Shown here one piece after another: positions 12,313-40,609 of a stretch of DNA of 40,609 nt. Both the position numbers and the translations under genes were made by a program. Origin of the DNA: a virus; IMG/VR virus record IMGVR_UViG_3300047496_000051, positions 1-40,609 of that record. One strand, 5' to 3'. The notes beneath the pieces are model-generated. The model saw only the letters and a program-made list of their open reading frames with translations, was not told the origin of the DNA and did no database searches. The first letter of the stretch is position 1. Each line of letters starts with the position of its first letter.

Positions 12313-12478
12313 GTGGATCAAACCAGGCTGGATCGTATTTTACCCGCCAGATGCCGGCTGGGATGTTCTCTGGGTCAACCGGGACACAGAGGGTCCAACT
12401 GGATAGGTCGTTTTGTCGCAGTAGGAGCCAGCAGGGCAATATCCACGGTTTTTGGATGTTGCGCCCCACCGCGATCAC
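12167..12478 (-). CDS. Possible protein overlapping both neighbours, up to 103 aa
   Basis: A GTG codon forms a 4-nt GTGA overlap with the GcrA-like stop. The first 45 residues read like a real protein (NIQKPWILPCWLLLRQNDL; ENIPAGIWRVKYDPAWF). After about residue 55 the frame runs inside the next gene and looks like a shadow. It may be a real gene with a long overlap, or one cut short or extended by a frameshift. Without it, 12313-12474 would be an unexplained gap. Confidence 0.4.
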   Translation of the reverse strand: MIAVGRNIQKPWILPCWLLLRQNDLSSWTLCVPVDPENIPAGIWRVKYDPAWFDPHDGLSVGTANSHCVLSPRMPVDKSSYGTSPPRANRSLPRHSRDDRPRV

Positions 12479-12864
12479 CGTGTCCGAGCCAATGGTTTCT
12501 GGAAAGCTATAGCCGCGTGTCCAAGGCAGTAAGGGCCCTTCCCCACAGGAAGGCCACAGAAGCGCACTGAGGCCCCATGTCCCGTAGGCCACCGGCACAT
12601 ACCCGTCAGCAAATCCTCTAGCCCTAGCGTGCCCGGGGCTGGCTCAGGAGGGGTAGGAGGTAGGGGCTTAGGAACAGACATTGGCTTGGGGAGAGATATC
12701 TGTGTCGGACGCCGGGCTAATCCCATCCTGCTAACCATTCCTGCGACCGAGGAACGGGTGACACCCAACTGGCGCCCTATCTCACCCATAGACCAGCCTA
12801 GAGGCCAGACTTCGCGGATGTAAGCGCGGCGGGATTCGAGGTCGGGGGTTTCGCGGGCAGGCAT
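12475..12864 (-). CDS. GcrA-family transcription regulator, 129 aa
   Basis: GcrA proteins bind sigma70-RNA polymerase and act at promoters carrying methylated GANTC sites in alphaproteobacteria. The N-terminal HTH is visible (residues 10-50: IREVWPLGWSMGEIGRQLGV, then TRSSVAGMVSRMGLARRP). A Pro-rich linker (58-80) is followed by the C-terminal sigma-interacting motif, CRWP-TGHGASVRFCG-LPV-GKGPYC-LGHA (90-117). The ATG at 12864 overlaps the upstream stop by one nt (TAATG). A short linker makes it smaller than chromosomal GcrA. It likely redirects host transcription. Confidence 0.85.
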   Translation of the reverse strand: MPARETPDLESRRAYIREVWPLGWSMGEIGRQLGVTRSSVAGMVSRMGLARRPTQISLPKPMSVPKPLPPTPPEPAPGTLGLEDLLTGMCRWPTGHGASVRFCGLPVGKGPYCLGHAAIAFQKPLARTR

Positions 12865-13013
12865 TACCTCTCCATCCAATAGCGCCGTATGGGGTCGGGC
12901 TTTGGTTCGGGTTTAATCACTTTCCGAGCCTCAAGGTCGCGTTTCAAATCCTCAATGACAGCGAGGTATTTCTTGGAGCGCCGCTGCTTGGCGTCGGAGC
13001 TGGACCTGCTCAT
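12864..13013 (-). CDS. Small basic protein, 49 aa
   Basis: Translation gives MSRSSSDAKQRRSKKYLAVI followed by a helix and a KPEPKPDP linker. It overlaps its neighbours as ATGA and TAATG, so it is coupled to the repressor and the GcrA gene. No family recognised. The Lys/Arg-rich start suggests nucleic-acid contact. Confidence 0.65.
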   Translation of the reverse strand: MSRSSSDAKQRRSKKYLAVIEDLKRDLEARKVIKPEPKPDPIRRYWMER

Positions 13014-13180
13014 TGCTCGCTCGCAATCTGTTCCAGGAGCTTTAGGACGGGCTTGGAAGGGGGGCGAATCCCGGCCTCAATCCTGGCAATCGTGCTTTGA
13101 TTTACCCCTAGGAGGGCGGCGAAAGCTGTCTGGGTCAGTTCCAGCCGCTTCCTGAGTTTTTCGACGTTTATCTTGGCCAT
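13010..13180 (-). CDS. XRE/Cro-type HTH regulator, 56 aa
   Basis: A minimal helix-turn-helix protein: LRKRLELTQTAFAALLGVNQ then STIARIEAGIRPPSKPVLKL (residues 9-48), the Cro/CI-type fold without a C-terminal dimer domain. It opens the leftward operon, divergent from the early operon. The intervening gap holds inverted repeats that are candidate binding sites. It could be the Cro-like partner of a genetic switch, or the only repressor. Confidence 0.85.
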   Translation of the reverse strand: MAKINVEKLRKRLELTQTAFAALLGVNQSTIARIEAGIRPPSKPVLKLLEQIASEQ

Positions 13181-13291
13181 GGCGGTCTAAATAGCACGAA
13201 AAATAATTTATGCAAAGGGCATTTTTATGCTCGAATGGCGCTTGACGGGGCTAATGCCGTATGCATAATGGCATCAACAACGGAGATAAAC
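13181..13291. promoter_or_regulatory. Divergent early promoter and repressor operators
   Basis: Rightward promoter: TTGACG (13242-13247), 16-bp spacer, CATAAT (13264-13269), one mismatch from consensus in each box. Operator-like repeats: ATGCC-N11-GGCAT (13254-13274) covers the -10 and is centred near the palindrome TATGCATA. ATGC-AAAGG-GCAT (13210-13222) lies towards the leftward XRE start. The layout suits repression by the XRE protein. Confidence 0.65.
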
Positions 13292-13531
13292 ATGAGCTAC
13301 GGCAACGCCCCCCGCAAGAACTACAACCCCGCCGCTTCCAAGCAGGATTGGTCGGTTGGCCAGCAAGTGAAGGTTGGCTTCATGACCCTCAAGGTTCTGG
13401 CCAAGGTCGCAACTCCTGGCGATTGGTTGCCGGATGCATATGCCCTCGAAAGCAATGGCAAGTTCTACCGCTTCGTTCCCCATAATGGTCTGGCCCGCTG
13501 CGCCAACCTCGAAGAAGCGATGGCGGCTTAA
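13292..13531 (+). CDS. First gene of the early operon, 79 aa
   Basis: ATG at 13292 has GGAG 7 nt upstream, preferred over in-frame codons in the promoter. The N-terminus is flexible (MSYGNAPRKNYNPAA) and the rest reads as a small beta-barrel (SVGQQVKVGFMTLKVLAKV; SNGKFYRFVP). No family recognised. As the first gene behind a strong early promoter it may act on the host. Confidence 0.7.
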   Translation: MSYGNAPRKNYNPAASKQDWSVGQQVKVGFMTLKVLAKVATPGDWLPDAYALESNGKFYRFVPHNGLARCANLEEAMAA

Positions 13532-13532
13532 G

Positions 13533-13727
13533 ATGAACTTCAAACTGCATCAAGCGATGATCTCGGCGCACAGGGCGGCAGAACAGATATTGAACACGGA
13601 TTTCAACGCACAGCACGGCATGGACCAATTGATCCCGCTAAAAGATGCGCGCGACAAGCTGATGGATGCTCTCGATGCGCTTTCAGCCTATCAAGCCACA
13701 CTTAAGTCAAAGCAGGTTGCGGCATGA
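13533..13727 (+). CDS. Helical hypothetical protein, 64 aa
   Basis: Begins MNFKLHQAMISAHRAAEQIL one nt after the previous stop and is mostly helical. Stop overlaps the next start (ATGA). No family recognised. Confidence 0.6.
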   Translation: MNFKLHQAMISAHRAAEQILNTDFNAQHGMDQLIPLKDARDKLMDALDALSAYQATLKSKQVAA

Positions 13728-13915
13728 ACAGCTACTCAACAAACTCCGATCAATGGGAAGGCACTGAATTGGAGACCTCTCCCATTCTAAGCCCCTCCTG
13801 CTTCGCCAACATGCAAGCCAATCATCTTTTATCCCGCGATCCTTCCGTGCCCCGCAAAAGCTGGAAACAGATATTCGCTGAGAATGGAGTGAAAGAAACA
13901 TGGTGGATCAAGTGA
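13724..13915 (+). CDS. Hypothetical protein, 63 aa
   Basis: Starts in an ATGA overlap. It is Ser/Asn-rich, with an RKSWKQIFAENGVKETWW end. No domain recognised. Confidence 0.55.
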   Translation: MNSYSTNSDQWEGTELETSPILSPSCFANMQANHLLSRDPSVPRKSWKQIFAENGVKETWWIK

Positions 13916-14136
13916 CACAACCGAGCAGGGAGTTCTTTCTACAAAGGGCGATACTTGCCTCTGTCTCGCTATATCTTCCATATCATCTGTATACCGATGG
14001 CGCGCCTCAGACATTGCGCCATCTTCTGGACCTCGTAACCCTCACGGATGATAGCTGGTTCGTTGAACTTGTGACTGAGAAGTTCAATGAAGAAATTGCG
14101 CATTTCAACAAGTATTCGTCGGAGCTTCGGATATGA
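13900..14136 (+). CDS. Hypothetical protein, 78 aa
   Basis: Overlaps its neighbours by 16 and 4 nt. All-helical: RAILASVSLYLPYHLY, LRHLLDLVTL, FVELVTEKFNEE. No family recognised. Confidence 0.55.
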   Translation: MVDQVTQPSREFFLQRAILASVSLYLPYHLYTDGAPQTLRHLLDLVTLTDDSWFVELVTEKFNEEIAHFNKYSSELRI

Positions 14137-14306
14137 GCGATCAAGAACCAATCCAATGGACATTCCACAGAGTTCGCCAGGACATGCTGTGGCGCGATCT
14201 GGAAAAGACAAGGCCGATTGAGAGCGCGGGGGAGATTATTGCGGGTAGGTTGCTGGTGATCGTTTCGGTGTGCGGGTTGCTATATGCCATTAGCCGTTTC
14301 TTTTAA
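14133..14306 (+). CDS. Single-pass membrane protein, 57 aa
   Basis: Cytoplasmic charged N-terminus (MSDQEPIQWTFHRVRQDM) followed by a C-terminal transmembrane helix (residues 38-56, GRLLVIVSVCGLLYAI). ATGA overlap with the preceding gene. No family recognised. Confidence 0.55.
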   Translation: MSDQEPIQWTFHRVRQDMLWRDLEKTRPIESAGEIIAGRLLVIVSVCGLLYAISRFF

Positions 14307-14316
14307 GGTGTAGGTC

Positions 14317-14493
14317 ATGAGCATTGCCAGTAGAATACTGTGGATAGCGTTGACGGCATTCAACGGTATCACGTTTACCGCCGTTGCTCTGTTTGGCTTC
14401 GTGCCGTCGCCAAACGCTGTCGCCTGTGCTGCGTTCTTTGCTGCTGGTGTCGCCTGCCTTCTAATGCTGAGGACGGAATGGGGTGGGGCATAA
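14317..14493 (+). CDS. Small membrane protein with two transmembrane segments, 58 aa
   Basis: Two hydrophobic segments (residues 6-27, LWIALTAFNGITFTAVALF; 33-50, NAVACAAFFAAGVACLL) separated by a Pro turn. Preceded by AAGGTGTAGGTC. Function unknown; could be a holin-like or host-membrane protein. Confidence 0.5.
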   Translation: MSIASRILWIALTAFNGITFTAVALFGFVPSPNAVACAAFFAAGVACLLMLRTEWGGA

Positions 14494-14494
14494 T

Positions 14495-14731
14495 ATGGGC
14501 CGCGTCAAAGACCATTTTCACGAGGAAATCTGCGCCATGAGCGAGCAGGGCGATCAAGAGCCAGATTACGTCCCGACCAAAAAAGAGGCTTATGATAGCC
14601 TGCACATGATCCTAGGCGCCAAGCCTGCCTCCCATCGAAACGCGGATGATTGGCTTGCCATAGCCAGGGCTGAGGATATGTGCGGCGTGGCGGAGACGGT
14701 GGAATATTTGCAGAGGGTGCGGAAAAAATGA
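14495..14731 (+). CDS. Hypothetical protein, 78 aa
   Basis: ATG two nt after the previous stop. It is helical with KKEAYDSLHMILGAKPAS and DDWLAIARAEDMCGV segments. The stop overlaps the Rad52-type gene by 4 nt, so it may be expressed as an accessory to recombination. Confidence 0.6.
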   Translation: MGRVKDHFHEEICAMSEQGDQEPDYVPTKKEAYDSLHMILGAKPASHRNADDWLAIARAEDMCGVAETVEYLQRVRKK

Positions 14732-15402
14732 AGTTCGATGATAAACAGATTGTGGCTCTCTCTGCCCCGCTTTTGCGCGAGAACGTCAAGGTTCGCGAGC
14801 AGGCTGGCAGAGAGCTTTCATACATCGAAAGCTGGATGGCTATCAAAGAGGCCAATAACATCTTTGGCTTTGATGGCTGGAGCCGGGAAACTGTCGAGCT
14901 TCGCATGGTTTCGGAACGTGCGCGGAAGATCGGAAAGGCCCAAGACGATGGCTGGAGTGTGTCCTATGTTGGCCGCGTGCGTATCACCGTGGGCGATATC
15001 GTGCGCGAGGGTGTCGGCGCTGGGCACGGCATAGACCGCGATCTTGGCCTAGCCCACGAAAGCGCTATCAAGGAATGCGAGAGTGATTCTGCAAAGCGCG
15101 CTCTCATGACCTTTGGCAATCCGTTTGGACTGGCGCTCTATGACAAGGAACAGAATGAGGTTGAGGATGCGCCGAAGCCACAGCCTGCACCACCGTCTAA
15201 GCCCACTTCTACTGAAACCCCAGACCCAAACAAATGGGCTCAGAAAGCTATAACCAATATCCTGGGGGCTAAGACAAGAGGCGAGCTGGACGCTTTCCTG
15301 AAGAAACACGATGACACTATCGTCAAATATCGAGTGCCGTTCCCAGCGATCCATGGCGAAATTATCAAGGCCATACAGCACAGGACGGCGGAACTAGGAT
15401 GA
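14728..15402 (+). CDS. Rad52-type single-strand annealing protein, 224 aa
   Basis: Phage annealases of this class pair complementary single strands for recombination and repair. The core matches Rad52/Rad22: RELSYIESWMAIKEANNIFG and FDGWSRETVEL (residues 28-58), VSYVGRVRITV (78-88), then GVGAGHGIDRDLGLAHESAI (95-114) with SAKRALMTFGNPFGLALYDK. The last 90 residues hold a Pro-rich linker (PKPQPAPPSKPTSTETPDPN) and a small helical end domain. It heads an ATGA-coupled group with an HNH nuclease and a serine recombinase. Confidence 0.9.
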   Translation: MKFDDKQIVALSAPLLRENVKVREQAGRELSYIESWMAIKEANNIFGFDGWSRETVELRMVSERARKIGKAQDDGWSVSYVGRVRITVGDIVREGVGAGHGIDRDLGLAHESAIKECESDSAKRALMTFGNPFGLALYDKEQNEVEDAPKPQPAPPSKPTSTETPDPNKWAQKAITNILGAKTRGELDAFLKKHDDTIVKYRVPFPAIHGEIIKAIQHRTAELG

Positions 15403-15941
15403 GTGAGGGCAACTTCGAGGCCAAACTTACTGCCAAGCGCGAGACGGCGGCTGGGATATACCTGACCGTGCAAGTGCAGCCTGATGACTATAAGGCTGAT
15501 CTGGCTACGCTGCGTGTTGGCGCCGTTCTCATGGTAGGGTGGGCCGAAGTTGTGAACGCTCAAGTTGAGGCCATAGGGCTCTCTCCGCAAGCCGCTGGAG
15601 GCCACGCTCGCGCTGCTGCTCTGAGCCCAGACGAACGAAGTTCTATCGCCAGTAAGGCCGCTAATGCCAGATGGGAAGAAAAGAAAGACCGTCGCCCATT
15701 CTCCAGCCTTCCGCTTTCACAGCAGGCGGCTATTAGGTGCAATGATAACGATTTCAAGCTGTTTCTGAATGTAAGCAATGGCGTGGAGGCGGTTAATAAG
15801 GTTAGGGAGCATTGTGGCATTATTTCCAGAGCCACGCTTGACGACAAGTCCGCTTCGTCGGCGCGCTTCCAATGGACGGAGTTGGAAAGTAAATACCAAT
15901 CTTGGCTTACAGACGCCAGATATGCTGGATCAAAGAGATGA
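15399..15941 (+). CDS. Hypothetical two-part protein next to annealase, 180 aa
   Basis: The N-terminal part (residues 1-60, FEAKLTAKRETAAGIYLTVQ, LRVGAVLMVGWAEV) is a small beta domain seen in other phage early proteins near recombinases. The middle has a LSPDERSSIASKAANARW motif. The C-terminal part (about 115-180) is helical. Both ends are coupled by ATGA. Recombination accessory is inferred by place. Confidence 0.65.
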   Translation: MSEGNFEAKLTAKRETAAGIYLTVQVQPDDYKADLATLRVGAVLMVGWAEVVNAQVEAIGLSPQAAGGHARAAALSPDERSSIASKAANARWEEKKDRRPFSSLPLSQQAAIRCNDNDFKLFLNVSNGVEAVNKVREHCGIISRATLDDKSASSARFQWTELESKYQSWLTDARYAGSKR

Positions 15942-16285
15942 CTAAACCAATCTCCAGAGCTATGGCCGTGAATGCTATACTTCACAGGTTTCTGCACTCG
16001 GCTCACTACGAAGTCACCACAGGAACATGCTTTATCGTCTGCAAGGAATGTGGACTTCCGATTGAGCCGGAGCAGCCCATCCAGTTCGATCATGCCCATG
16101 CGATAATCCACAATGGTCCGCATGAGTATCAGAACCTAGTCCCACTGCATGTGAATTGCCATAAGAAAAAGTCGCGCAGAGATGTTGCAGCTAATTTTAA
16201 GATCAAGAGGATTTTGGGAGAGACGTGTCATGGGCCGAAGAGGAAAATACCGTCTAGGCCGTTTCAGAAGCGAGTGGCAGTATGA
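15938..16285 (+). CDS. HNH endonuclease, 115 aa
   Basis: A compact HNH nuclease with zinc-ligand cysteines (CKECG, residues 35-39). Catalytic elements: FDHAHAIIHNG (50-60), Asn66 in EYQNLVPLHVNCH, and His71/75 of the second part. The C-terminus is basic (KRKIPSRPFQKR). Co-transcribed with the annealase, so it may process recombination or packaging intermediates rather than be a homing enzyme. Confidence 0.8.
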   Translation: MTKPISRAMAVNAILHRFLHSAHYEVTTGTCFIVCKECGLPIEPEQPIQFDHAHAIIHNGPHEYQNLVPLHVNCHKKKSRRDVAANFKIKRILGETCHGPKRKIPSRPFQKRVAV

Positions 16286-16932
16286 GCCGCAAACATTCCA
16301 AAAAGCCAGTTCGACCACGCCCATTCCAAAAAGTCGGGCAACATTGCATTGAGATGCCTGATTTCTCAAAAGTCCCGCCGGTTCCATATATTTTCGGCTA
16401 TGCCCGTGTCTCCACGGTTCAGCAGCGGCTTGACCTTCAGATGACGGTTTTGAAGGAAGCCGGCTGCAAACGTATCTTCACGGACAAGCTTTCTGGCAAG
16501 ACCGCTCAGAGGCATCAGTTTAAGCTTATGCTTAAACATCTGCAGCGCGGCGACACAATCCTGGTCTATTCGCTCTCCAGGCTTTTCCGCAATACTAAGC
16601 AATTGCTAGAACTATTCGACAAGTTCAAGGCCGACGGCATCACCTTACGCAGTCTGACTGAGCCTCTGGATCTGAAGACCTCTTATGGCCGGATGGCTGC
16701 GACTATGCTTGCGGCAGTCGATGAAGCAGAGGTTGGCCGAACTCGCGAACGCACTATTGCCGGGATGGACGAGAGTGAGCGCCAGGGCGTGAAGTTTGGT
16801 GCGCCGCCGAAGGTAACGCCGGCCATTGCGGCAAAGATGAAGACCATGCGGTTCAAGACTGGGATTCCAGTTCCGGCAATCGCGCGGCAGTTCAGTGTAT
16901 CGGCTGCTGCCGTCTATCAACATACGAAGTGA
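16282..16932 (+). CDS. Serine recombinase (resolvase/invertase type), 216 aa
   Basis: Catalytic N-terminal domain: YARVSTVQQRLDLQ with nucleophile Ser44, LSRLFRN, and an RTRERT helix. A C-terminal HTH follows (IPVPAIARQFSVSAAAVYQH). The 216 residues fit small resolvases and invertases, plus an extra 35-residue basic N-terminus. It is too small for a large serine integrase. It might resolve genome multimers, invert a segment, or integrate. No crossover site was found by eye. Confidence 0.85.
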   Translation: MSRKHSKKPVRPRPFQKVGQHCIEMPDFSKVPPVPYIFGYARVSTVQQRLDLQMTVLKEAGCKRIFTDKLSGKTAQRHQFKLMLKHLQRGDTILVYSLSRLFRNTKQLLELFDKFKADGITLRSLTEPLDLKTSYGRMAATMLAAVDEAEVGRTRERTIAGMDESERQGVKFGAPPKVTPAIAAKMKTMRFKTGIPVPAIARQFSVSAAAVYQHTK

Positions 16933-16945
16933 AGGAGCGCAGCCT

Positions 16946-17152
16946 GTGAAATTCGATTGCGGCGCAAACTATGACGAATGGGAAGCCAAGATGTTGGACT
17001 GGCATCCGCATTTCTGCTGGTGGCCGGTAATGATCGCCAGTCACGATTGCCGATGGCTTGAACCGATAGAGCGAAAGTTTCGCTTTATAGGACAGTACAC
17101 CGGAAAGCCGCGCCGTCCTTCTTATCGTCTTCCTGCAACCCCCAACACATAG
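16946..17152 (+). CDS. Small Trp-rich phage protein, 68 aa
   Basis: GTG start with GAAGGAG 8 nt upstream. Conspicuous aromatic motif WEAKMLDWHPHFCWWPVM, then a beta-rich end (FRFIGQYTGKPRRPSYRL). It resembles small phage early proteins with a WHPHF/WWPV motif. Function unknown. Confidence 0.65.
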   Translation: MKFDCGANYDEWEAKMLDWHPHFCWWPVMIASHDCRWLEPIERKFRFIGQYTGKPRRPSYRLPATPNT

Positions 17153-17162
17153 CGAGCGAAAA

Positions 17163-17483
17163 ATGAGAACGCAAGATTACCTGATCCCGTGGCAGGACAT
17201 GCGCCGACTTCGGGCCGACGCCTTGACCGCTCACGTCATGCGCGTCATCGCCCCTTACATCACGGATTTTGAAAACAATCTCCATGCCAAGGCGCACCGG
17301 GAACTCTATAAGGTTTTCCACGACGCCGGGGTGGAGATCATTACGGACATGGACCGCGCCTCTGCCGGTCTAATGCCGCGCAACGATCAGGGCTACACGC
17401 GCGAGGAATTGCAAATTCTGGAGCATCGCCGCCGCGAAGCGATGTTGCGTCCGTTGCCCATAACCGTCCTGCAAACCCCGTAA
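17163..17483 (+). CDS. Helical hypothetical protein, 106 aa
   Basis: All-helical with charged surface (MRRLRADALTAHVMRVIAP; AHRELYKVFHDAGVEI). No family recognised. It lies 10 nt after the previous gene in the linker-joined array. Confidence 0.65.
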   Translation: MRTQDYLIPWQDMRRLRADALTAHVMRVIAPYITDFENNLHAKAHRELYKVFHDAGVEIITDMDRASAGLMPRNDQGYTREELQILEHRRREAMLRPLPITVLQTP

Positions 17484-17500
17484 CCGAGGAGCCCAAGAAC

Positions 17501-17722
17501 ATGAGATTTTTGACAGTCAAGGAATGCGAGGCGTTCGATGGTCCGGGCGGCCAGAACGAGGTCACGCCTGTTCAAGATAAAGAGGGCAAGGTCATCGCCG
17601 TCTATGTCTACACCCGGCACGCCAGCGGATCGCGGACAGAGCATTTGCGTCCGCACGGTCACAAGACGTACGGCAATCTTGTAGCGGCAGCGGATGCGCG
17701 CGCCACTGCATCAGCGTCTTAG
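17501..17722 (+). CDS. Hypothetical protein, 73 aa
   Basis: Starts after a TAACCGAGGAGCCC linker. A small alpha/beta protein (VKECEAFDGPGGQNEVTPVQ; VIAVYVYTRHASG). No domain recognised. Confidence 0.6.
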   Translation: MRFLTVKECEAFDGPGGQNEVTPVQDKEGKVIAVYVYTRHASGSRTEHLRPHGHKTYGNLVAAADARATASAS

Positions 17723-17734
17723 CGGGGAGCCGAA

Positions 17735-17968
17735 ATGACGAAGATAGTGAATCTTGTGCAGGCTGCTCCGAACGCGAAGCTGATTGATGGTCTGCGGGAA
17801 ATGTTGGCGCAGGCAGAGCGCGGGGAGATTGAAGGTATTGCTGGTGTGAAGCTTCGGCCTGATAATGGGTTCGCGTCCTACCGGATAGGCGCCTGTTCCG
17901 ATCTGGAGTTAGCTGGCGCACTGGCATTTGCCACCCATGACCTCATCGCTGGAAACGAGAAAAAATAG
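17735..17968 (+). CDS. Hypothetical protein, 77 aa
   Basis: Linker GGGGAGCCGAA precedes the ATG. Helix-rich; a Leu/Ala pattern (LIDGLREMLAQAERGEIEGI) and an ELAGALAFATHDLIAG end. Resembles small proteins of unknown role found in alphaproteobacterial prophages. Confidence 0.6.
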   Translation: MTKIVNLVQAAPNAKLIDGLREMLAQAERGEIEGIAGVKLRPDNGFASYRIGACSDLELAGALAFATHDLIAGNEKK

Positions 17969-17976
17969 GAGCCCCG

Positions 17977-18180
17977 ATGCGAACGCCACGCGCCTACGCA
18001 ATTCAGCCGGAAGATGACCTTGCCGATAAGATCATTTTGTCGGTGCGAACCAAAGGCTTTGAAAGCCAAGTCGAAGTTCCCGTGCCGCTCGGCCAGGCCG
18101 GCATGGATGCCTTTGTCTGCTCGTGGCTCAACATGATGGCGGAGGCGTTGAAGATGCCTCACGCTGTGCAAACGAAATAG
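17977..18180 (+). CDS. Hypothetical protein, 67 aa
   Basis: The stop of the previous gene forms part of its ribosome site (TAGGAGCCCCG). A beta-then-helix protein (DKIILSVRTKGFESQVEVPV; MDAFVCSWLNMMAEAL). No family recognised. Confidence 0.6.
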   Translation: MRTPRAYAIQPEDDLADKIILSVRTKGFESQVEVPVPLGQAGMDAFVCSWLNMMAEALKMPHAVQTK

Positions 18181-18194
18181 GATCGGAGCGTCTT

Positions 18195-18434
18195 GTGGAC
18201 CTACACAACCCGATAGATTGGGCCGTCAGATGCCGCGAGGTGATGGACGAACGAGACAAATATCGCAATGCCCTGCTGTGGGCGTTCGACCGTCTCAGCG
18301 TTGACGATATGACAAAGCGCGAACGGCAGCAAACTATGCTGGGGATTGGCAATGTCATAACGGGCAAACCTTCGCCAGCCGCTACATATGTCCCGAACGA
18401 GTGGGACGATTCAGCAGCATTGGAGATATCATGA
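18195..18434 (+). CDS. Hypothetical protein, 79 aa
   Basis: GTG start with CGGAGCGTCTT upstream. Helical first half (WAVRCREVMDERDKYRNALL), charged. ATGA overlap with the next gene. No family recognised. Confidence 0.55.
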   Translation: MDLHNPIDWAVRCREVMDERDKYRNALLWAFDRLSVDDMTKRERQQTMLGIGNVITGKPSPAATYVPNEWDDSAALEIS

Positions 18435-18652
18435 AAACGAAAGGCCCAATCAAAGACGCAGTGGAGATTCTCGACGAAGAGGTCGCGCGGCTCGATAAGG
18501 AAAACGCCAGATTGCGGGGAATGCTCATGGCCCTCTTGAAGGTGGCTGAATATAGCGAACACAACGGCAGCGACGCAGATGGCTGCGCCGCCTGTGCAAC
18601 CGTGAATCGTGTTCGGGAAGGCCTTAAGCTCTGCTGGGAAACGGTCCGATGA
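18431..18652 (+). CDS. Coiled-coil protein with Cys-rich end, 73 aa
   Basis: A strong heptad pattern (AVEILDEEVARLDKENARLR) then a C-terminal HNGSDADGCAACATVNRV segment with a CxxC. Coupled on both sides by ATGA. Function unknown. Confidence 0.6.
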   Translation: MKTKGPIKDAVEILDEEVARLDKENARLRGMLMALLKVAEYSEHNGSDADGCAACATVNRVREGLKLCWETVR

Positions 18653-18837
18653 AAGAATACGTCCTTGGCTGCATCAACAAACGCATTGATGCCAATGCAC
18701 ATATTGCCAGCGAAGCTCGCCGGCTTTGTTATCAAGAGGAAGAAATGGTGCGAAGTCACGTCATTCGAGAACTTCAAGACCTGAAGCGCGAGATCGAGGA
18801 CGGATATCTCAATCCCCTTTCTACAACCAGTTTTTAA
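18649..18837 (+). CDS. Helical hypothetical protein, 62 aa
   Basis: Starts in an ATGA overlap. A charged helix (IRELQDLKREIEDGYL) forms the second half, with three Cys overall. No family recognised. Confidence 0.5.
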   Translation: MKEYVLGCINKRIDANAHIASEARRLCYQEEEMVRSHVIRELQDLKREIEDGYLNPLSTTSF

Positions 18838-18849
18838 TCGGAGCCACGG

Positions 18850-19122
18850 ATGAAACCTTGCACCATGGGCACAGGCTGCGATGAAGCGGGCAAGTGCTAT
18901 GCCGCCGAACAGGGCAAGCCGGAAATGTGCGGCCGCCCAATTTCGGAACAAATCCCAACCGGGCTACGCGAAGAATTTATGGAAGAGGTTCTCGCCTACA
19001 TTCTCCGCGAATCCATGATCGACGCGGATGGCAACCAAGCTGCCGGTGTCGGCAACGCATTAAAACGGGCATGGCTCGCCGGGTTCAAAACCGGGCAATC
19101 CATCCGTGCAATCACCCACTAA
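18850..19122 (+). CDS. Cys-containing hypothetical protein, 90 aa
   Basis: Linker TCGGAGCCACGG before ATG. The N-terminus has four Cys (CTMGTGCDEAGKCYA ... MCGRP), a possible zinc site. The C-terminus is helical (EEVLAYILRESMIDADG). No family recognised. Confidence 0.6.
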   Translation: MKPCTMGTGCDEAGKCYAAEQGKPEMCGRPISEQIPTGLREEFMEEVLAYILRESMIDADGNQAAGVGNALKRAWLAGFKTGQSIRAITH

Positions 19123-19137
19123 TTCGGAGCGGTCGAA

Positions 19138-19377
19138 ATGACAGATTTTCATGCGCGCGCCGCCGTCCTCCGGGGCATGGCGCTCCGATTGGAGGACCGG
19201 GCCGCTGGACTGCAAAGTGAAGCACTTCATCTGAAGGCTATCGCGGATCAATGCACCGCAGAAGGCGATCGTGACCAGAAGCTATGCCCGCACTGGGGTC
19301 GCACTCACAATACCGGCGGTTGGAATTGCCCGACTTGTGGCGCGAGCGGTCCTGCCGATGCAACAACCCGAACCTGA
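19138..19377 (+). CDS. Helix plus zinc-ribbon-like protein, 79 aa
   Basis: Helical residues 1-45 (HARAAVLRGMALRLEDRAAG), then CPHW ... GGWNCPTCGASG, where only three Cys are visible, so the ribbon is partial. No family recognised. Confidence 0.55.
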   Translation: MTDFHARAAVLRGMALRLEDRAAGLQSEALHLKAIADQCTAEGDRDQKLCPHWGRTHNTGGWNCPTCGASGPADATTRT

Positions 19378-19387
19378 GGAGCGTCGC

Positions 19388-19579
19388 GTGGAACATGTCT
19401 TCATTCACATCGGTCACCGCCGCTGGTGTATGTGCTGCGATCTATTTCAGTCGCACAAGGCTGGTGGATTTTTCGGCAAGCCCGGCGATTGTCCGAACAA
19501 TGTCCCGGCGGCCGCAAAAAATCGGTCATCTCAGGTAGTGATGATGCACGAAATTGAAACTGAAAAATCTTCTCGATAG
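19388..19579 (+). CDS. Small Cys/His-rich protein, 63 aa
   Basis: GTG start with AGGAGCGTCGC upstream. The N-terminal FIHIGHRRWCMCCDLFQSH suggests a metal site (Cys, His). A basic tail follows. No family recognised. Confidence 0.5.
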   Translation: MEHVFIHIGHRRWCMCCDLFQSHKAGGFFGKPGDCPNNVPAAAKNRSSQVVMMHEIETEKSSR

Positions 19580-19589
19580 GGAGCGTCTG

Positions 19590-19901
19590 GTGTTTTCAAT
19601 TCGGTACATCGGTAATCGGTTGGTGGTTCGGGGATGCACCCCGCACTATCGCCGCCCGCTGCCAGAGATTGTGCAGTTCCGTCGCGAGATGGCCGCACAA
19701 TTGCGCGAGGCCGGGGTGCCGCTTCCGATTTCAAAGAGGGTCGCCGTCACGCTGATGGCGAAGAAGCATTCGGAAGGAGGCGATCTGCCAAATCTTCTCC
19801 AGGGTCTCGTTCAAGCCTTGGATGGTGGAACGCTGGGGCGCGACGATGCGATTTTGGATGATGACAAACAGATCGGCGTCCTGCACGCCCAATGGATATA
19901 G
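19590..19901 (+). CDS. rusA: RusA-type Holliday junction resolvase, 103 aa
   Basis: RusA enzymes cut four-way DNA junctions formed during phage recombination and replication. The fold is recognisable: a basic N-terminal half, then the family core GGDLPNLLQGLVQALDGG (residues 63-80) and AILDDDKQIGVLHAQW (87-102), with Asp65, Asp90, Asp91 and Asp92 as candidate metal ligands. GTG start follows a GGGAGCGTCTG linker; an ATG 12 codons upstream is an alternative. It complements the annealase in a recombination set. Confidence 0.75.
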   Translation: MFSIRYIGNRLVVRGCTPHYRRPLPEIVQFRREMAAQLREAGVPLPISKRVAVTLMAKKHSEGGDLPNLLQGLVQALDGGTLGRDDAILDDDKQIGVLHAQWI

Positions 19902-19912
19902 GAGCGTAATAA

Positions 19913-20152
19913 ATGAATCTTTCGGACGAGGACCGTGCCGCACTGAGGGCAACCGACCCAGTTCTTGTGGAAGCGGTCGCGCGGAAAATGGCTGAGATTG
20001 ACCAGCGCAATCCCGATGCGCACCCAACTAGCGAATATACTGGCAACGGACCGTTCCCGGATATTGCTTGGCCGGATGACCATAAAATCTGGATGACTTA
20101 TGCCTGGAAGGCTAGACACATCGTCTTACTCATTTCACGCCACGCGAATTAG
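19913..20152 (+). CDS. Hypothetical protein, 79 aa
   Basis: Linker TAGGAGCGTAATAA before ATG. A helical N-terminus (EDRAALRATDPVLVEAVARK) and an aromatic C-terminus (WMTYAWKARHIVLL). No family recognised. Confidence 0.55.
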   Translation: MNLSDEDRAALRATDPVLVEAVARKMAEIDQRNPDAHPTSEYTGNGPFPDIAWPDDHKIWMTYAWKARHIVLLISRHAN

Positions 20153-20160
20153 GAGCCGTG

Positions 20161-20370
20161 ATGCAAAACAGTCTTCCTGATCCGAACACAGTAGGTTGGT
20201 GGGCCATGAAGGACGGCGAGCACATCGAGTTTGCCGCGAGTGAGCGTTTCGATAACACCACCGTAGCTGGCAACCACTTCTTTGACCGCCACGGCTTCGG
20301 CGTCGTTTTCCACCACGGCAATCGCTCAGGGCTGCGGCCGACCATAGCCGGGGGAAATCATGCCAACTGA
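20161..20370 (+). CDS. Hypothetical protein, 69 aa
   Basis: ATG 5 nt after GGAG; a GTG one codon before is too close to the site. Reads as a small mixed alpha/beta protein (GWWAMKDGEHIEFAASERF). The stop overlaps the zinc-finger gene by 11 nt. Confidence 0.5.
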   Translation: MQNSLPDPNTVGWWAMKDGEHIEFAASERFDNTTVAGNHFFDRHGFGVVFHHGNRSGLRPTIAGGNHAN

Positions 20371-20515
20371 TGTCCCAGATACCGCAGATTATTGGTGGCC
20401 GCGCGAGCGCCAGCAACAGTCCCAAAAGCGCGATACCAAATGCCCGCTCTGCCACAAGATGTTCTGTGGCGAAGATGGATTGCGTACCCACATTAAGTTC
20501 AAACACAAAAACTAA
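20360..20515 (+). CDS. C2H2 zinc-finger protein, 51 aa
   Basis: The C-terminal half is CPLC-HKMFCGEDGLRT-H-IKFK-H, an exact Cys-x2-Cys-x12-His-x4-His finger. The N-terminus is polar with aromatic residues (DVPDTADYWWPRERQQQS). The start has a GGGGGAAATC ribosome site. A single classical finger is uncommon in phages. It may bind DNA or a host protein. Ros/MucR-type proteins are a related possibility, though those have shorter finger spacing. Confidence 0.7.
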   Translation: MPTDVPDTADYWWPRERQQQSQKRDTKCPLCHKMFCGEDGLRTHIKFKHKN

Positions 20516-20528
20516 CGGAGCCGAGATT

Positions 20529-20792
20529 ATGACGGAAAAGTTGATCGACATGCCACTGTCCCGGTTCAAGTTCGCCCCGCTTGAGAATGCGGCGATACCT
20601 CCCGCTGGCATGATAGAGCACATCAAAGATCACTGGTGGATTGTCCATCCGGAAATGGGGTTGGCGCTATTCGAGGGAAAATACAAGCAATGCAATCGCG
20701 ATGAGGCGATGACGCGGCGCTTGGCTCGGAACTATCCGTGGGCAGAAGTGCGGCAAGTTCCGTCCGCCTTTTTCCCTGCAAGTGAAATGTAA
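20529..20792 (+). CDS. Hypothetical protein, 87 aa
   Basis: Linker TAACGGAGCCGAGATT before ATG. Compact alpha/beta protein with DHWWIVHPEMGLALFEG and RNYPWAEVRQV segments. No family recognised. Confidence 0.6.
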   Translation: MTEKLIDMPLSRFKFAPLENAAIPPAGMIEHIKDHWWIVHPEMGLALFEGKYKQCNRDEAMTRRLARNYPWAEVRQVPSAFFPASEM

Positions 20793-20802
20793 GGAGGCAG
20801 GA

Positions 20803-21018
20803 ATGCCAGGAGATCACAGCAAGAGTTTTGACGGCCCCGGCGACAACACGCCGTTCGTCCCGTCATGGGTGCTTGAGCAGGACCGGGACCGCCGTGACGC
20901 CGCGCGATACCGCTGGCTGCGCGATAACGGGCATATCAAGTTCCTGTGCTACGGGCAGGAAGTGGATGACTTGGTGGATGCCGAAATGGCCAAGCCGCCT
21001 GTGCAACTGGAAATTTGA
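20803..21018 (+). CDS. Phage protein with DAARYRWLRDN motif, 71 aa
   Basis: Perfect AAGGAGG 5 nt before ATG, unlike its GGAGC neighbours. The motif DRRDAARYRWLRDNGHI is frequent in short phage proteins as I know them. Function unknown. Confidence 0.65.
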   Translation: MPGDHSKSFDGPGDNTPFVPSWVLEQDRDRRDAARYRWLRDNGHIKFLCYGQEVDDLVDAEMAKPPVQLEI

Positions 21019-21030
21019 GGGAGCGATAGC

Positions 21031-21324
21031 TTGGAACATCCAGCCGACACCATCAAACGAATTGCAGATATTGCGGAAGCGGTCGGCGCTCAGTCTGGAA
21101 CTGGCGGCTGCGAAATGGCCGGCGCTATCATTTCCTATTTCGCAGCCCATCCTGACAAGGTTTGCGACCTGTTCGAGAACGGATTGGTTGACACCCTCGG
21201 CAGGGACGACCTGTGGGCCAATGGCAGATTGACATTCCATCGACAACTGGATGGCGCTGTTACAACGCCACAAGACCTTCGCATCGCCAAAACGGTGCGC
21301 GCAATTTCAAAGCCAATTCCGTAA
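21031..21324 (+). CDS. Helical hypothetical protein, 97 aa
   Basis: TTG start with GGGAGCGATAGC upstream. An all-helical protein (DTIKRIADIAEAVGAQSG; MAGAIISYFAAHPDKVCDLF). No family recognised. Confidence 0.55.
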   Translation: MEHPADTIKRIADIAEAVGAQSGTGGCEMAGAIISYFAAHPDKVCDLFENGLVDTLGRDDLWANGRLTFHRQLDGAVTTPQDLRIAKTVRAISKPIP

Positions 21325-21337
21325 CCGTGGAGCCGAA

Positions 21338-21541
21338 ATGCTGATCTTGACCAATGCAGAGCAAGGCGAAGAGGGAAAGCAGCTCGCGCTCAATCCGAAA
21401 TTCGTTGAGGCGATCTATGTCTCCTTCAGCGGCGATGCTGGGCAGGGAGAAAATTGCCGCGTGAAGTGCGGTGGCAAAGAGTGGATCGTGCAAGAAACAT
21501 TCGACCAGATAGGCAAGATGCCTGCTTGGTCCAAAATCTGA
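21338..21541 (+). CDS. Hypothetical protein, 67 aa
   Basis: Linker GTGGAGCCGAA before ATG. A small beta-type protein (VEAIYVSFSGDAGQG; NCRVKCGGKEWIVQ). No family recognised. Confidence 0.55.
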   Translation: MLILTNAEQGEEGKQLALNPKFVEAIYVSFSGDAGQGENCRVKCGGKEWIVQETFDQIGKMPAWSKI

Positions 21542-21553
21542 GGAGCGAAAACT

Positions 21554-21826
21554 ATGGCCGCAATAGCTGATAATCCAAGTCCGGTTTCCGGCGACATGGT
21601 GAAGGTGAACACTGTCCCGCTTTCTGTCTACGAAAGCGCCGTGAAGGGCCGCGCAGATTTCCGGGATGCCTTGGTCGCTGAACGTCAGAAGTCTGCCACC
21701 CTGATCAAGGTGGTGGCGAACTTCGCGAACCCGGATTACTGGATTGATGAACCGGGACGCCTGCAATGGACTGGCAAGCGCCATGCCATCGAGTTCGCGC
21801 AATCTGTTCTAGATGACCTCAAGTAA
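21554..21826 (+). CDS. Hypothetical protein, 90 aa
   Basis: Linker TGAGGAGCGAAAACT before ATG. Residues 25-70 are helical (YESAVKGRADFRDALVAERQ). The end has a WIDEPGRLQWTGKRHAIEF segment. No family recognised. Confidence 0.6.
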   Translation: MAAIADNPSPVSGDMVKVNTVPLSVYESAVKGRADFRDALVAERQKSATLIKVVANFANPDYWIDEPGRLQWTGKRHAIEFAQSVLDDLK

Positions 21827-21841
21827 CGGAGCGCCGAAACA

Positions 21842-21955
21842 ATGAACCCGCACGACATTTTTATCTGGACCGCCGACCTTTGCGGCAGCGTCGCAATAGT
21901 AGCTGCCACGGGTGGGTTCGTCTGGTGCATCTATAATATGTTTCGTGGGAGTTGA
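21842..21955 (+). CDS. Short membrane peptide, 37 aa
   Basis: Linker TAACGGAGCGCCGAAACA before ATG. Almost the whole peptide is one transmembrane helix (FIWTADLCGSVAIVAATGGF). Last gene of the rightward operon; ends 3 nt from the convergent leftward stop. Confidence 0.55.
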   Translation: MNPHDIFIWTADLCGSVAIVAATGGFVWCIYNMFRGS

Positions 21956-22243: not shown

Positions 22244-22608
22244 TATGAAACTCCCTGCAAGGTCTTGTAGCCGTTTAGGGCGGAAAGAGCAGCGTTGAAA
22301 GCATCGACTTCAGCTTGGACCGCAACGCTATTCCCAGCACTATTCGCGGCCTCGAATTTCTTGAGTTCGGTATGCACGTCCGTAACAAGCTTCTTAATCT
22401 CCGCCAATGTGGCTTGGTTAACCACTCCACTATTTACGATGACATCTAGCGAATTTTCTGCCGTAGTCGTCGCTTGGATCGCCTCAGCAAGCGTCTTGAC
22501 CTGGGTTGGGCTTGGGCTGGTGAGAGATACGGCTAGACCGGAAAGGGTTGTACCGCATCCGCCTAGGGCCGTGAGGGCAAGGAATGCAATGGTGTGTCTA
22601 AGTTTCAT
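22243..22608 (-). CDS. Predicted lipoprotein, 121 aa (possible outer-membrane spanin)
   Basis: The signal peptide LRHTIAFLALTALGGCG ends in a lipobox (LGGC) with Cys18 as the lipid-modified residue. The mature part is helical (AEAIQATTTAENSLDVIV; IKKLVTDVHTELKKF). Placement in the lysis cassette suggests an outer-membrane spanin, but it is longer than most and no inner-membrane partner is obvious. Confidence 0.65.
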   Translation of the reverse strand: MKLRHTIAFLALTALGGCGTTLSGLAVSLTSPSPTQVKTLAEAIQATTTAENSLDVIVNSGVVNQATLAEIKKLVTDVHTELKKFEAANSAGNSVAVQAEVDAFNAALSALNGYKTLQGVS

Positions 22609-39541: not shown

Positions 39542-40609
39542 TTAGCTATTGAGTAACAGCAATTCGATTTCGGCATCTTCGTCATTGTCTTGAACAATAG
39601 ACATCGGCTTAAGCGGTTTGGCCGGAAGTGTTAAGATTGCCCGCTTAGGCTTTGGATTTGCCAGTTCAGACATTTCTTCGGTGATTGCATCGATTTCTTT
39701 GGCGCGCTCAGCCCACAGGCTTTCCTTGGCCTTTTGGGCTTTGCGGGCATCTTTCCGAGCCTTTTCAATCTGCGCTTTGGTGAGAGGAAGGAAGTGGCCA
39801 CCAATCTGGCCACTACTCCCTTGCCCATTCCAACTATCCGGTGTCTCAATCCAAGATGCAGACCCGGTAATGGCCGGGAGGGTGACTGATCCGGCTCCGG
39901 CCCAACTGTCCTGCGCTTCTATCCATGCAGCGCTTCCAGAGACTAAGACTCCGCCAGCGCCAGCCCATGTGTCCTGTGCTTCAGTCCATGCTGCTGTGCC
40001 AGAAATCCCCGCAGTAACGGACCCGGCGCCAGCCCAAGTATCTTGCGCCTCAGTCCAAGCAGCAGTTCCTGAAGTTACGGAAGTCCCAGCACCAGCCCAT
40101 ATATCTTTGGCTTCTGTCCAGGCTGCAGTTCCTGAAACGAGGACGCCACCGGCACCGGCCCAAATATCTTGCGCTTCAGTCCAGGCGGCAGAGCCAGTAA
40201 TTCCACTAGCGGGGGTGTAAGTAATAATGATGAGGCCAGCGCCACCTGCGCCGCCGATGGCAGTTGTTCCACCCCATGTGCCGCCGCCGCCGCCACCACC
40301 ACCATAAGTGCCACCAGCACCACCATTACTGACGTTGTTATTGATCGATGTGCCGCCGCCGCCGCCACCACCGCAACCATGCGAACCGTCGAAGGCTGTG
40401 TCTGAGCCACCAGCGCCACCGTTTCCGGGAATAGAACTGGCATCATTACCGCCGCCACCACCGCCGCCGCCAGCCGTGCCTGGGGACCCGGCGCTTCCCG
40501 ATGTATTGCCACCAGCGCCCCCGCCGGTTCCACCGACACCATTGCCACCGGTCGCGCCAGCTAGGCTACTGGCATTTGCACCCGCCGTTCCATTATTTGC
40601 ACCGCCCCC
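39542..40609 (-). CDS. Glycine-rich tail/adhesin-like protein, C-terminal part (continues from 592)
   Basis: Same gene as the piece at 1-592; bases above 40482 duplicate its 1-127 part. Here the poly-Gly region ends with a hydrophobic GLIIITYTP segment, the usual end of such domains. Six Trp-rich repeats follow (core SGTAAWTEAQDTWAGAG). The protein then changes to a Lys/Ala/Glu-rich helical segment and an acidic tail (DNDEDAEIELLLLNS). Repeats between a Gly-rich domain and a charged helix suggest an exposed, recombination-prone adhesin. The plus-strand reading frame over it is a shadow. Confidence 0.85.
   Translation of the reverse strand, partial: GGGANNGTAGANASSLAGATGGNGVGGTGGGAGGNTSGSAGSPGTAGGGGGGGGNDASSIPGNGGAGGSDTAFDGSHGCGGGGGGGTSINNNVSNGGAGGTYGGGGGGGGTWGGTTAIGGAGGAGLIIITYTPASGITGSAAWTEAQDIWAGAGGVLVSGTAAWTEAKDIWAGAGTSVTSGTAAWTEAQDTWAGAGSVTAGISGTAAWTEAQDTWAGAGGVLVSGSAAWIEAQDSWAGAGSVTLPAITGSASWIETPDSWNGQGSSGQIGGHFLPLTKAQIEKARKDARKAQKAKESLWAERAKEIDAITEEMSELANPKPKRAILTLPAKPLKPMSIVQDNDEDAEIELLLLNS
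39818..40204 (-). repeat. Six degenerate tandem repeats encoding a Trp-rich motif
   Basis: The minus strand encodes six copies of (S/T)G(T/S)A(A/S)W(T/I)E(A/T)xD(x)W(A/N)G. The second Trp codons lie at 40160, 40097, 40034, 39965, 39902 and 39830, so periods are 63, 63, 69, 63 and 72 bp. All are multiples of three. Copies have diverged at synonymous sites, so this is an old protein repeat rather than an assembly artefact. Confidence 0.9.
40483..40609. repeat. Terminal direct repeat, right copy (identical to 1-127)
   Basis: Exact copy of the first 127 bases. With one copy removed the genome is 40482 bp. Both copies lie inside the glycine-rich tail gene, so the repeat is coding. Confidence 0.95.

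Follow-up and report, generated by a model that had tools for sequence, protein, structure and literature searches.

A six-base sequence, GGAGC followed by C or G, precedes most of the small genes that form a row in the early region of a phage genome, and appears to be a start signal peculiar to the row, not favoured by the structural genes of the same phage or by its probable hosts. Its position before the starts, its restriction to the array and its independence from the identity of the gene that follows were all observed. On balance, it is probable that GGAGC[C/G] is a genome-specific start-associated element of this lineage's early small-gene array, comparable, in a shorter form, to the Start-Associated Sequence (SAS) of Cluster K mycobacteriophages; this reading is favoured over one in which the linkers are microhomologies for the shuffling of genes.

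Genome organization and the row of small genes

The DNA analysed (the window) is the whole IMG/VR virus record IMGVR_UViG_3300047496_000051, 40,609 bp in length. Because its first 127 bases are identical to its last 127 (1-127 and 40483-40609), it probably represents a full genome, 40,482 bp long. The - strand carries the structural genes (portal, a weakly terminase-like gene and a homologue of a capsid protein), while the early region extends on the + strand from 13292 to 21955, with small genes, an annealase, an HNH protein, a serine recombinase and an array of 21 ORFs. The features relevant here are as follows:

13010-13180, - strand: HTH repressor-like gene, divergent from the early region
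13242..13269, + strand: top sigma-70-like promoter match of the early region (consensus match only), beside the divergent HTH gene
14728..15402, + strand: Rad52/Rad22-family annealase (Pfam PF04098, 9e-34)
15938-16285, + strand: HNH protein of the early region
16282..16932, + strand: small serine recombinase (Resolvase domain; Pfam PF00239, 5e-36; phrog_125), directly upstream of linker 1
16946..21955, + strand: array of 21 small, mutually unrelated ORFs of 37-106 aa (from ORF geometry and protein comparison)

The total of sigma-70-like promoter matches was not above chance, and the same was true of promoters and terminators within the array. No close relatives of the serine recombinase turned up when they were scanned for. 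Six direct repeats of 52 nt, 63-72 nt apart, were noted at 39818-40199, probably inside a structural gene. A GcrA-like cell-cycle regulator domain is encoded on the - strand at 12475-12879, and this gene points to an alphaproteobacterial host; the named relatives of the phage include Bradyrhizobium and Rhizobium phages. The hosts are probably Alphaproteobacteria, and it is probable that the virus infects soil-type bacteria.

The junction gaps in the array measure 8-17 nt, except for three overlaps of 4, 4 and 11 nt. Comparison of the 21 array proteins with each other gave no clear similarity (best E 0.005), a Pfam scan left most of them without matches, searches for their phage homologues were nearly all empty, and sequence collections yielded no close relative of the array. 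The original prediction, which spoke of about 20 tiny genes with near-uniform linkers and held that conservation lies in the linker and not in the genes, agrees well with these 21 dissimilar ORFs and with the presence of GGAGC[C/G] at 16 of the 18 non-overlapping junctions.

The uniformity of the linkers and of the junction geometry would be compatible with tandem duplication of a gene together with its linker, the genes having then diverged beyond recognition. However, the 21 proteins show no clear similarity, and the DNA flanking the linkers is not more similar than expected by chance. Paralogy among the array proteins was rejected, since no clear case was seen, and an origin by duplication is considered extremely improbable.

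Conservation of the linker at array starts

All of the 16 starts named in the original prediction proved correct, each being preceded by GGAGC and then by C (7) or G (9). The linkers, including two near misses, are all on the + strand:

16934..16939, +: linker 1, GGAGCG, directly past the serine recombinase stop, before the GTG at 16946
17153..17162, +: near-miss linker containing cGAGCG, before 17163
17488..17493, +: GGAGCC before 17501
17726..17731, +: GGAGCC before 17735
17968..17973, +: GGAGCC before 17977
18185..18190, +: GGAGCG before 18195
18840..18845, +: GGAGCC before 18850
19126..19131, +: GGAGCG before 19138
19378..19383, +: GGAGCG before 19388
19580..19585, +: GGAGCG before 19590
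19901..19906, +: GGAGCG before 19913
20152..20157, +: GGAGCC before 20161
20517..20522, +: GGAGCC before 20529
20793..20798, +: near-miss linker GGAGGC, before 20803
21020..21025, +: GGAGCG before the TTG at 21031
21329..21334, +: GGAGCC before 21338
21542..21547, +: GGAGCG before 21554
21828..21833, +: GGAGCG before 21842

The three overlapping genes are without GGAGC[C/G], the one at 18431 having GGAGA and those at 18649 and 20360 having no GGAG. If GGAG sites are counted instead of junctions, GGAGC again accounts for 16 of the 18 in the array; over the whole array, 17 occurrences lie on the + strand and two on the - strand. In the alignment of the 18 GGAG sites, position +4 is C in 16 cases, A in one and G in one, and position +5 is G in nine, C in eight and T in one. 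Only GGAG and these two positions are informative, and the bases just outside are near background; the conserved stretch therefore consists of six bases with sharp edges.

The excess of C was evaluated against several backgrounds, a home-made caller supplying the gene starts for other loci and for the rest of the phage genome. Relative to the window's own GGAG background, 16/18 corresponds to P = 7e-8, and at GGAG sites elsewhere in the same phage C is found in only 2 of 12 cases (Fisher P 1.2e-4), one of the two being the - strand gene at 22608. The early-region genes upstream of the array have GGAGC at one of three GGAG sites, which are too few to place the boundary of the class at the array. 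The phage background comprised 1,628 stop-GGAG-start linkers before small genes, from 289 other phage loci (3.8 Mb). There the base after GGAG is A in 28%, C in 25%, G in 32% and T in 15%, and GGAGC[CG] makes up 15.5%; compared with these linkers, P for the 16/18 of the array is 2e-8 when C is counted and 1.3e-11 for GGAGCS, and the window is the outlier among the locus strands examined (3.5e-7, the next being 1e-3). The host-like sample consisted of the genes called on 35 genome pieces from an order-wide set of relatives of one Bradyrhizobium genome, which carries a related annealase. C follows GGAG at 27 of 170 sites (16%) in these order-wide relatives and at 18 of 81 (22%) in that Bradyrhizobium, both samples representing plausible hosts.

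These figures bear on the simplest explanation, namely that the linkers are ordinary Shine-Dalgarno (SD) sites and that the C results from drift or from a shared host preference. GGAG is indeed the SD core, and its spacing of 5-10 nt from the start is normal. The anti-SD is CCUCC, so that the bases C[C/G] after GGAG do not pair with 16S rRNA. Moreover, no preference for C is seen in genes of the same genome, in relatives or in host-like genomes (P about 1e-8 to 1e-11), that is, the context is not common to host genes and other phage genes. A host SD preference as the source of the C was rejected on the 16% and 22% found in plausible hosts, and we regard the ordinary-site explanation as quite unlikely. 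The original prediction had argued that the SD core leaves the C unexplained, and had proposed to look for the same context in host genes; the contrast between 16/18 in the array and 16-22% in host-like genes sustains the argument, and the comparison with the hosts brought no refutation.

A hairpin at, or occlusion of, the SD was also considered and rejected, the unpaired probability in the array being about the same as in other genes and in shuffled flanks. Matches to a complementary sRNA ([CG]GCTCC) in non-coding DNA were few, scattered in intergenic positions and in no case compelling, Rfam yielded only a tRNA, and no reader protein or sRNA for the extra C was identified in this analysis.

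It is conceivable that the linkers are targets of a sequence-specific shut-off of early mRNA, like that exerted by RegB or RegA of T4. T4 RegB cuts GGAG/U between early genes, with GGAG in their SD regions among its targets, and the sequence 3' of the motif has an influence (PMC3014915). The likeness to RegB targets lies in GGAG at intergenic early-gene starts with a possibly relevant 3' context, and the present element is likewise confined to small genes of the early region. However, the fixed base here is C, and a Pfam scan of the array and flanking proteins, which are part of the proteins of the window, gave no match to RegB or RegA; a role in shut-off appears very unlikely.

Likeness to the SAS of Cluster K and possible role of the linker

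The SAS of Cluster K mycobacteriophages, GGGATAGGAGCCC, occupies the ribosome-binding site (RBS) position of non-structural genes and occurs only in the non-structural half of the genome; its positions 10-13 are conserved, though unable to pair with rRNA (Pope et al. 2011, PMC3203893). Genes with an SAS mostly have intergenic gaps of more than 50 bp, and about half of them have 17-bp inverted repeats (ESAS) (PMC3203893). It has been reported from 2011 onwards, and its function is unproven (PMC3203893, PMC12699233), as is that of the linker described here.

The two elements have in common GGAGC as their core, placed at the RBS within a few bases of the start (GGAG lies 5-10 nt upstream in the array), as well as a single orientation and the association with non-structural genes, shown here by the 16/18 in the array against 2/12 elsewhere and by the 17 + strand against two - strand occurrences. 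Both precede non-homologous genes, both have conserved non-pairing bases after GGAG (in the array C at 16/18, then C or G at 17/18), and in both the upstream stop can fall inside the element. In phage Anaya, used as a control, GGAGC was found at 15 of 22 GGAG sites.

In contrast, six bases are conserved here and 13 in the SAS, GGAGC is followed by C or G rather than by CC, and there is no GGGAT upstream. The gaps are of 8-17 nt and not of more than 50, no inverted repeats of the 17-bp ESAS kind are present at the linkers, and the hosts are probably Alphaproteobacteria instead of mycobacteria. Membership was judged by a match to GGGATAGGAGCCC with at most two mismatches; the window contains no match with 0-2 mismatches, and its 12 matches with three mismatches compare with a shuffle mean of 13. 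Because the 13-mer, the long gaps and the inverted-repeat extension all fail, the linker is said to resemble the SAS and is not filed as one. It may nevertheless be a second example of an SAS-type element. Such a counterpart in a phage of probable alphaproteobacterial hosts, seen again in relatives whose genes differ, would point to something more widespread, and would give a second, simpler system for asking what reads the bases after GGAG.

As to how a start-associated element might work, GGAG is the SD core, which pairs with 16S rRNA. Because GGAG lies -1 to +4 nt from the upstream stop (as read off the linker coordinates), a ribosome that has just terminated could move on to the start located 5-10 nt further along. 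The C[C/G] after GGAG, not pairing with the anti-SD, would mark the array starts as a class apart from the other genes of the phage, and a factor of the phage or of its host may read this mark during translation or mRNA turnover. Alternatively, the linker could be a fixed SD of medium strength that equalises the output of many small early proteins. In a more specific version, which we put forward tentatively and consider doubtful, a phage-specific reader (protein or RNA) would recognise GGAGC[C/G] as a tag of early accessory genes and switch the array on or off at the level of translation or decay, unrelated lineages having converged on the core; if this were true, Cluster K mycobacteriophages and alphaproteobacterial phages would have arrived separately at the same core.

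Related phages and the exchange of genes

One relative is G005, whose portal is 67% identical and whose sequence starts within a counterpart of the array, next to the - strand block of structural genes that it shares with the window. GGAGC[C/G] is present at 5/6 of its array junctions (one of them read by eye), and its structural genes do not generally carry it; the array proteins of the window had no match in G005 at E 0.01, in a search that preceded the two-way comparison of all G005 pieces. L144/G451 is related to the window through the annealase (55%) and the serine recombinase (34%), and L144 has in addition homologues of two genes just past the window's array; in the array behind its recombinase, GGAGC is found at 6 of 10 GGAG junctions. 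G004 has mixed linkers. A further annealase relative (57%) is on L057, a 'Flavobacteriales' MAG contig, possibly through a binning error.

The original prediction suggested that the linkers may be microhomologies at which an annealase shuffles small, presumably anti-host genes. More broadly, genes might be exchanged at the linkers by an annealase or by illegitimate joining, with exchanges that preserve GGAGC. Related phages have almost entirely different genes but retain the linker, genes for an annealase and a serine recombinase lie beside the array, and phage mosaicism has been proposed to arise at short conserved sequences that bound genes, according to work cited in PMC3029335. Those boundary sequences, as cited there, are similar in being short conserved DNA at junctions with changing genes between; here, the stretch measures just 6 bp and in every case coincides with the SD, and exchange at the junctions was not observed.

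Several results speak against such exchange. To pair efficiently, Red-beta needs a minimum of 23-27 bp and RecA one of 31-34 bp (PMC3945230), whereas six bases are conserved in the linkers and the longest run common to two of them is 12 bp. Identity in the flanks equals the column-permuted expectation, with no excess over chance, and crossover-like repeats were not found at the junctions; site-specific recombination by the serine recombinase was likewise rejected, no suitable repeats being present at the linkers. Finally, in the pairs compared, homologous genes do not keep the linker from one phage to another. For six pairs of homologous genes with GGAGC in one member, the partner keeps GGAGC in none (0/6): L144_6/G004 (71% protein identity; GGAGG in G004), G005 gene 3/L312 (58%; GGAGG in L312), A1/L054, A16/Rhizobium phage RHph_X3_15, L144_a/Bradyrhizobium phage ppBjS10J-1 and L144_c/G004. 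Since homologous genes elsewhere have other linkers, the linker follows the genome and not the gene, and the 0/6, although a small sample, argues against genes arriving with GGAGC ends. The conserved linker and the C beyond the SD core stand as originally described; the part assigned to annealase microhomology is unsupported, and exchange at the linkers is judged unlikely, although illegitimate joining at short microhomologies is conceivable.

If GGAGC[C/G] is instead a start-associated element, the non-overlapping, self-contained stop-SD-start junctions could make each gene a module to be gained or lost with its neighbours undisturbed, and selection would pull newcomer genes to the resident signal. 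The linker thereby suggests how rows of small accessory genes may turn over while newcomers adopt the resident start signal.

More distant phages carry other arrays. In L312 (G426), a thirteen-gene array on the - strand has a mostly uniform linker of its own, with GGAGG in 7/9, often as GGAGGC, and different phages may each have a house-style linker. In the array of the window, the 51-aa ORF at 20360-20515 has a C2H2 zinc-finger signature below the Pfam cut-offs, and the L144 array contains a small protein that resembles it by eye. Unlike this similar-looking L144 gene, which lies behind a GGAGCC linker, the ORF of the window overlaps its neighbour and is without the GGAGC linker.
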